Under the pieces are notes generated by a model, which had not been told where the DNA came from, did not search any database, and saw nothing but the letters and a program-made list of their open reading frames with translations. The position numbers and the translations under genes are program-made. A DNA stretch of 64,000 bases from Candidatus Saccharimonadota bacterium (GTDB lineage: Bacteria > Patescibacteriota > Saccharimonadia > Saccharimonadales > Saccharimonadaceae). Below are positions 20,622 through 21,731 of this stretch, in pieces; position 1 is the first letter of the stretch, and each line of letters begins with the position of its first letter. Location: positions 371,708-435,707 of the forward strand of contig JAFQXL010000004.1 of NCBI GenBank assembly GCA_017406985.1. The letters are read 5' to 3'.

Positions 20622-20672
20622 CTAAAAAGAGGAGGCGGTGTCCCGCATATATCCAATGCAGGTCCTGCCTCC
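20622..20672 (-). terminator. Long imperfect hairpin with T-run after the nuclease gene
   Basis: On the minus strand GGAGGC (20667-20672) pairs with GCCTCC (20631-20636), with further inner pairing around a 7-nt loop (20649-20655), followed by TCTTTTTAG. It lies 22 bp past the nuclease stop and is a likely terminator. The stem is unusually long, so a small RNA role is also possible. The rest of 20476-20693 holds only the operon promoter and AT-rich spacer. Confidence 0.6.
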
Positions 20673-20693
20673 AATACTTTAAGTATAGCATAT

Positions 20694-21074
20694 TTACCTT
20701 TCAAAGACAAGTTTCTTCGATTTTTTGGTGATTACAATAATACGATCGACACTATTAGACCTTTTAAACTCGTTTTCAATCTCTCGTAAGCATTTAGATT
20801 GGTGTCTTTTTGCTCTACGCAAATCAATAATAATGTTTCGGGATTGTTTAACTGCTTTTTGGATAGTGTTATTAATTAAATACTTACCTTCGCCTTTAGG
20901 CGCTTTCATCTCCCACTTTAGCCTGTTCATTATAATGTCTGGGGAGTGAACGCCTGTGACATTACTTTTTGGGATTAGTTCAATGTCGTATCCTTGTTCT
21001 GTTAGAAAAACAACAGTAGCGTTTTCATGAGTTTTCAGAACAACTCCATTTGGGATAATTTTTCCTTTTTTCAT
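20694..21074 (-). CDS. CdiA C-terminal-like PD-(D/E)xK nuclease
   Basis: 126 residues. The central HSPDIIMNRLKWEMKAPKG has the D...ExK active-site pattern of PD-(D/E)xK nucleases. The flanks (TVVFLTEQGYDIELIPKS and SRNIIIDLRRAK) resemble the tRNA-nuclease domain found at the C-terminus of CdiA toxins and as free-standing genes on mobile elements. There is no signal peptide or delivery domain. The ATG overlaps the stop of the upstream gene by ATGA, a toxin/antidote-like arrangement. tRNA cleavage is inferred from the family, not shown. Confidence 0.7.
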   Translation of the reverse strand: MKKGKIIPNGVVLKTHENATVVFLTEQGYDIELIPKSNVTGVHSPDIIMNRLKWEMKAPKGEGKYLINNTIQKAVKQSRNIIIDLRRAKRHQSKCLREIENEFKRSNSVDRIIVITKKSKKLVFER

Positions 21075-21646
21075 GATAATTTTTCTCCCACTACTAGAGA
21101 AGAGATGAACTGAGAGAGTCTGTCCGCGTCTTCTTTTGAAAGTCGCTTAGGTAAACAGAGAGAAGCGAGAGAGCCGTCTGACATTGGAAAAGGGAAACTA
21201 ATCAAGTCATTGTTTTGTGTATTACCTTTTGTTGACGTCTCAGAGACTCGCATAATTAGATTTGTATCCTTTTTTTGTGGCTGAGGTTCATTGGGCAATT
21301 TTTTGTTTTGGGTAGGACTCTTCCTAATTTGAGGCGTCCAACCTGGATTTTGTAAAAAGTTATTATACCAGGTCAGGGCCCGACCAGCACGAGCTCTATA
21401 CGACCCATAACTACGTTCATTATATCTGTCCAGGGCAAGATTTTTAAAACGAATCATATAATCATCAAGGTCAATATCTGACACATCAACATCTTCCCAA
21501 TTGTCTTTCTCGACTGTTTCAAAGATTTGATGGACAGCGGTCTTTAGCGGGATAACGACCGAAGACTTCGCACGCCCTTTCTTTACTAACGAGTCTAAAT
21601 ATGCATTTAGCCCGCTGATTTTTTTATTTCCTACAATATCTGGCAT
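21071..21646 (-). CDS. Putative immunity/antitoxin protein with recombinase-like helical domain
   Basis: 191 residues from the ATG at 21646, chosen because AAGGAGG stands 7 nt upstream; a longer frame to 21727 lacks such a site. Residues about 12-105 (LNAYLDSLVKKGRAKSSVV, SYGSYRARAGRALTWYNNFL) look like the helical core-binding domain at the N-terminus of tyrosine recombinases, but the catalytic domain is absent. A Pro/Asn/Gln-rich linker leads to a C-terminal module (DGSLASLCLPKRLSKEDADRLSQFI). The four-base overlap with the nuclease gene suggests a co-regulated pair in which this protein neutralises the nuclease. Function is inference. Confidence 0.65.
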   Translation of the reverse strand: MPDIVGNKKISGLNAYLDSLVKKGRAKSSVVIPLKTAVHQIFETVEKDNWEDVDVSDIDLDDYMIRFKNLALDRYNERSYGSYRARAGRALTWYNNFLQNPGWTPQIRKSPTQNKKLPNEPQPQKKDTNLIMRVSETSTKGNTQNNDLISFPFPMSDGSLASLCLPKRLSKEDADRLSQFISSLVVGEKLS

Positions 21647-21731
21647 AATTACCTCCTTGATATTAATTAACTTATTGTTGAGACAATTATAGCACAGTGT
21701 ATTAATGTCAGCAATACTTTTTCGCAAAGAT

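Follow-up and report, generated by a model that had tools for sequence, protein, structure and literature searches.

The conserved partner of a nuclease gene found in a stretch of Saccharimonadota DNA is a small hairpin unit with its own promoter, rather than the 191-amino-acid (191-aa) protein encoded directly upstream, and this unit accompanies the nuclease near-universally among its relatives. From the sequence evidence we propose, at a probability of about 70%, that the locus is a module in which a toxin nuclease of the CdiA_C family would be countered by a small-RNA antidote. An antidote role for the RNA is drawn from the weak expression signals of the nuclease next to the strong ones of the RNA, the persistence of the RNA after loss of the nuclease, the rarity of the nuclease without it, the co-inheritance of RNA class and nuclease, and the position of a similar unit in phages, where an immunity gene would be expected.

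Organization of the locus

The window, that is the whole 64,000-nucleotide stretch that was analysed, carries on its minus strand two open reading frames (ORFs) of 191 aa (21646-21071) and 126 aa (21074-20694) that overlap by ATGA, as a sequence-only reading of this DNA had described. The 126-aa nuclease gene has dnaJ, a glycosyltransferase gene and the 191-aa gene as neighbours. The features are as follows.

21686..21714, minus strand: putative promoter of the two-gene transcript (-35 TTGCTG at 21709-21714, 17 nt, -10 TATAAT at 21686-21691)
21651-21657, minus strand: Shine-Dalgarno AGGAGGT of the two-gene transcript, from the sequence
21071..21646, minus strand: gene of the 191-aa upstream protein, a rare accessory (ORF, homologue counts, model)
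20694..21074, minus strand: gene of the 126-aa PD-(D/E)XK nuclease, CdiA_C family, predicted toxin (E17, D46, E55, K57)
20682..20710, minus strand: predicted small-RNA promoter (-35 TTGTCT at 20705-20710, 17 nt, -10 TATACT at 20682-20687)
20624..20672, minus strand: predicted small RNA, class T1, proposed RNA antidote (hairpin and terminator tail)

The -35 box of the small-RNA promoter is imperfect and falls within the nuclease gene. The hairpin comprises 42 nt (GGAGGCAGGACCTGCATTGGATATATGCGGGACACCGCCTCC, 20631-20672, minus strand), lies 9 nt from the -10 box and is followed by the terminator tail TCTTTTT (20624-20630). It folds on its own at -22.4 kcal/mol, a stability reached by 1 of 200 shuffled versions of the surrounding 101 nt, so that the long closing hairpin pointed out earlier is real.

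A stand-alone CdiA_C-type nuclease

The 126-aa protein matches Pfam PF18451 (CdiA_C) with 44.2 bits (cut-off 26.6) and contains the pattern E17...D46...E55-x-K57. These four residues are retained by nearly all of its 129 relatives, and an alignment of 64 sequences from relatives shows no variation at E17, E55, K57 and D84. The AlphaFold model reaches a pLDDT of 96, and its sole significant match to a solved structure is 4g6v, the CdiA-CT tRNase of B. pseudomallei 1026b (Foldseek E 7.6e-7), which is also retrieved by the 64-sequence profile (E 6.7e-7). The product is thereby confirmed as a stand-alone CdiA_C-type nuclease without a delivery domain, in line with the sequence-only reading. CdiA-CT Bp1026b cleaves the acceptor stem of tRNA-Ala (PMC9086364), and the relationship to this enzyme suggests that the nuclease studied here probably targets tRNA as well. 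NCBIfam and PADLOC returned zero matches for either protein of the window.

The nuclease was found in 90 of 197 relatives, with up to 9 copies per genome at different loci. The window's own genome carries a second CdiA_C nuclease (L091, C3:183522-183899) with a T9-class hairpin on its 3' side. A deep alignment of nucleases proved too diverse to serve in scans of contigs; the window nuclease (P0002) on its own retrieved ruminant-gut and other Saccharibacteria, plus one Eggerthellaceae genome. Its single viral match (L239) was set aside as an apparent chance match within an unrelated 400-aa ORF. Nuclease promoters in the relatives are weaker than the RNA promoters described below and end 6-7 nt 5' of the ATG, and Shine-Dalgarno sequences are rare; the nuclease mRNA is therefore probably leaderless.

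The upstream protein is a rare accessory

The sequence-only reading had assumed a toxin and an antidote, which was the right kind of idea, but had cast the helical upstream protein as the conserved antidote, and this part did not hold. Of 197 relatives, 4 have a homologue of the 191-aa protein and 90 have the nuclease, and a gene of this type stands 5' of the nuclease at just 2 of 129 nuclease loci, so that the expected co-occurrence is not conserved. Neutralisation of the nuclease by the 191-aa protein, as in a toxin-antitoxin or immunity pair made of two proteins, would fit the ATGA overlap, the shared transcript, the second copy of the pair in another genome (G057, L003) and the homologue found before another D...ExK protein (L004). 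Such a pair is nevertheless unlikely, given that the partner is absent from 127 of 129 nuclease genes, that its homologues are solitary (L167, L168) or lie beside an ATPase gene, and that both 191-aa and nuclease pairs retain the hairpin RNA. A nuclease mostly without the partner, and a partner beside other genes or alone, is largely the picture that had been named beforehand as speaking against the pair.

The model of the 191-aa protein consists of a helical N-terminal part, a low-confidence linker, and a beta hairpin with a helix. The earlier comparison with the core-binding domain of a tyrosine recombinase is weak: integrase SAM-like domains matched only below threshold and in single homologues (E 0.1-0.2), and a Foldseek search with a medium-confidence model built from 6 sequences gave nothing at E <= 0.001. 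The only match of the window protein was PHROG 2602, of unknown function, and a search of phages, plasmids and viral contigs with it (P0001) gave no matches. The 191-aa protein is a rare accessory, added 5' of the nuclease in the window.

One homologue lies 5' of the gene for another protein, of 151 aa, that shows a D...ExK pattern (L004, 1130-2091), and a second precedes an AAA/OLD-like ATPase gene (L005, 1432-2061). Given these varied neighbours, proteins of this family may act as adaptors that serve more than one nuclease or defence gene.

A promoter and hairpin unit follows nearly every nuclease gene

Based on motif class and inspection, the 3' end of about 126 of the 129 nuclease genes is joined by a sigma-70-like promoter (TTGAxA-17-TATAAT) with a hairpin of 38-60 nt, which starts about 9 nt past the -10 box and is usually followed by a T-run; in members of class T7, a clear T-run directly after the hairpin is often absent. 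The 3 nucleases without a hairpin are L025, which is cut short by the end of its contig, the fragment L132, and L030. The hairpin that had been treated as a mere closing feature is thus present as described, but is actually a near-universal partner of the nuclease.

In the relatives, the -35 box of the RNA lies within the final codons of the nuclease gene. The promoter spacing is 17 nt in 89% of cases versus 29% of shuffles, and promoters with few mismatches are seen in 75% versus 16% of shuffles. In a loose automatic scan, 107 of 129 distinct nucleases passed, as did 30 of 121 controls; the two-mismatch criterion was therefore too lax and was superseded by a tight one. The tight promoter-plus-hairpin scan detected the unit at 88 of 129 nucleases versus 6 of 157 other ORFs of the same loci (or 5 of 156, as one of the six control matches is a nuclease RNA itself), automatic counts that vary with the criteria and come from fragmentary MAG contigs.

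Rfam identified only tRNAs in the window at the gathering threshold and chance-level matches around the locus at a relaxed threshold, and it gave zero matches on the phage loci described below. In the open-access papers that were searched, an RNA partner is not described.

RNA structure, classes and inheritance

The hairpins fall into classes so dissimilar that a single origin of all of them cannot be assumed. In class T3 (28 RNAs), 93% of cells are paired versus 77% when shuffled and at most 52% when slid; changes on both sides are found in 10 of 13 pairs, and an internal loop (5'-GA / 5'-CCAA) is conserved. The outer stem of class T1 shows GGAGGC/GCCTCC in place of GAGGGC/GCCCTC through compensatory changes. 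We also considered whether the hairpin might be attC-like or belong to an integron, and rejected this since the stems covary freely and the units have promoters.

Mapped on the nuclease tree, with the unassigned group included, RNA class requires 21 changes versus 78 when shuffled, a difference to which related sequences contribute and which therefore demonstrates co-inheritance rather than a count of events. At three loci (L061, L082 and L127, the last with an additional same-strand copy), the RNA unit is inverted and carries a promoter-like box on its own strand. Inversion together with the promoter indicates that the RNA is an independent transcription unit.

The RNA also outlasts the nuclease. 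The 63 T3 matches seen in context comprise 39 beside an intact nuclease, about 10 beside a remnant and 14 without a nuclease within 300 nt (24 of 63 beside a remnant or without a nuclease), where some of the 14 lie at contig ends and some of the intact or remnant calls come from fragmentary MAG contigs. In several of the latter two groups, L106, L121 and L125 among them, the last nuclease codons, the promoter and the RNA are all that is left. As some RNA copies have no nearby nuclease, the RNA may have another job.

Further RNA units were observed in these regions. The window's own genome (G000) contains a T3 RNA (C3:286831-286869; L126 1532-1570) with a promoter and nuclease-like last codons and no nuclease nearby, possibly a solitary antidote. 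Nuclease-free copies at L101, L107, L111 and L116 adjoin predicted surface or repeat protein genes. Units of T4 type lie divergently just 5' of the nucleases in L011, L020, L021 and L024, which have their own T1 or T2 RNA on the 3' side, indicating that RNA units accumulate in these islands. In addition, the flanks of L011, L018 and L021 contain another recurrent long hairpin (GGTTGGTTT...AAACCAACC) near nucleases, preceded in L011 by a TATTAT box 8 nt 5' of it, which is possibly a further RNA class.

Occurrence beyond Saccharibacteria and in Streptococcus phages

A convergent RNA unit lies 3' of the nuclease in a distant family of Patescibacteria (L181-L183, L187, L188), and the nuclease of the Eggerthellaceae genome (L237) has a co-directional T9-like hairpin. 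Actinobacteria are the hosts of Saccharibacteria, so that this actinobacterial carrier makes transfer between epibiont and host possible.

In Streptococcus and related phages, CdiA_C either forms a fusion with the MuF head protein or has a gene of its own in the head operon (L203), and these copies occupy a fixed position in that operon. A convergent promoter, typically TTGAxA-17-TATAAT, and a hairpin abut the stop codon at 12 of 12 such loci; at L203 it was another hexamer that satisfied the automatic test, while the TATAAT was recognized by inspection. None of 10 MuF genes without CdiA_C has this antisense unit, and 6 of the 10 overlap or directly precede a small ORF. For MuF polymorphic toxins of temperate phages, a small immunity ORF is expected immediately 3' (PMC5576092). 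Among the phage RNAs (n=6), both-sided changes occur in 11 of 24 pairs.

Alternative roles of the hairpin

We considered whether the hairpin could be merely an intrinsic, perhaps two-way, terminator, with the TATAAT box arising by chance in AT-rich DNA. A hairpin with a T-run does resemble a terminator, and the intergenic regions are short and AT-rich. The constant 17-nt and 9-nt spacings and the shuffle controls argue against this explanation, as do the rarity of the unit at other ORFs, the promoters carried by inverted units on their own strand, the class-specific internal loops, the absence of the unit 3' of MuF genes without CdiA_C and the survival of the RNA unit beyond the nuclease. Together these observations render a terminator alone very improbable.

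The tight co-inheritance of RNA and nuclease would suit any RNA that works with the nuclease, including a guide or cofactor, or an antisense regulator of the nuclease mRNA, in place of an inhibitor of the protein. However, pairing with the start of the cognate mRNA (first 70 nt) is at the background level given by other classes (-20.8 versus -20.5 kcal/mol), a variable guide segment is not evident, and a cofactor would not explain why the RNA is retained without the nuclease, which makes these roles highly doubtful. The least probable alternative is a selfish mobile or homing element with a DNA-cutting nuclease and the hairpin as its mobility signal, which could account for the multiple copies per genome and for the tandem and nested hairpins of L015, L018 and L027, but not for the fixed head-operon position of the phage copies or for a tRNase as the closest solved relative.

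Comparison with known systems

The proposed RNA antidote module was compared with established toxin systems. With CdiA-CT Bp1026b (PF18451, 4g6v), the nuclease shares the Pfam family, the fold and the D...ExK active site, but it is stand-alone and leaderless and lacks the CdiA delivery part. In contact-dependent inhibition (CDI) the CdiI protein gene lies next to the toxin, whereas the conserved neighbour here is an RNA gene; at the window locus, a CdiA delivery protein and a CdiI neighbour are absent and the 126-aa gene stands alone. The conserved pairing of a type II toxin-antitoxin system is likewise not seen for the 191-aa protein and the nuclease (2 of 129 loci).

Type III toxin-antitoxin systems (ToxIN, CptIN, TenpIN) are alike in the proposed logic of a nuclease toxin held by an excess of structured RNA. 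By definition (PMC5086642), their antitoxin RNA consists of tandem repeats and precedes the toxin gene in a shared operon, the two being separated by a terminator, whereas we find a single hairpin, an RNA gene that is downstream with its own promoter or convergent, and a PD-(D/E)XK toxin fold in place of the ToxN/AbiQ type. Since the repeats, the single upstream promoter and the ToxN fold are all lacking, the module would follow a type-III-like logic without being a member. Type I systems share a small RNA adjoining the toxin gene, but their toxins are small membrane peptides and not nuclease enzymes, and the RNA described here pairs no better than background with the start of the toxin mRNA (first 70 nt). 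In the MuF polymorphic toxins, the protective element expected just downstream of CdiA_C on the head protein is a small immunity ORF (PMC5576092), whereas the CdiA_C subtype described here has a convergent hairpin RNA gene.

Proposed mechanism and implications

As judged from sequence patterns, a mechanism can be proposed that covers transcription, toxicity, binding, target and physiological role. The toxin would be the small stand-alone CdiA_C (PD-(D/E)XK) nuclease, which most likely cleaves tRNA as CdiA-CT Bp1026b does, and a typical copy would be expressed from a weak, leaderless promoter. The antidote would be a structured RNA of 40-60 nt whose promoter would be the stronger of the two, with a -35 box in the 3' end of the nuclease gene; this stronger promoter and the RNA's own terminator suggest that it is made in excess. 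We infer that the RNA binds the nuclease, probably by mimicking its substrate within the active-site cleft. Loss of the RNA, through phage shutdown of transcription or loss of the element, would free the nuclease and might cause growth arrest, serving abortive defence or addiction. In Streptococcus phages, a similar RNA gene at the position of an immunity gene may act on the CdiA_C of the MuF head protein.

With less assurance than for the locus itself, we lean toward a broader interpretation in which CdiA_C nuclease toxins, both the stand-alone forms of Patescibacteria and those on phage head proteins, are neutralised by hairpin RNAs instead of immunity proteins. If true, immunity to a polymorphic toxin domain would here be provided by RNA, and the RNAs would form a new antitoxin family without relation to ToxIN. 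A widespread toxin domain presumed to need protein immunity would then be countered by RNA in settings as different as ultra-small, host-associated bacteria and temperate phages. Structural and defence studies would gain a new, compact pair of protein and RNA. Furthermore, such an antidote would explain how CdiA_C MuF phage toxins spare their own host, and would probably account for many unannotated small RNAs of Saccharibacteria.
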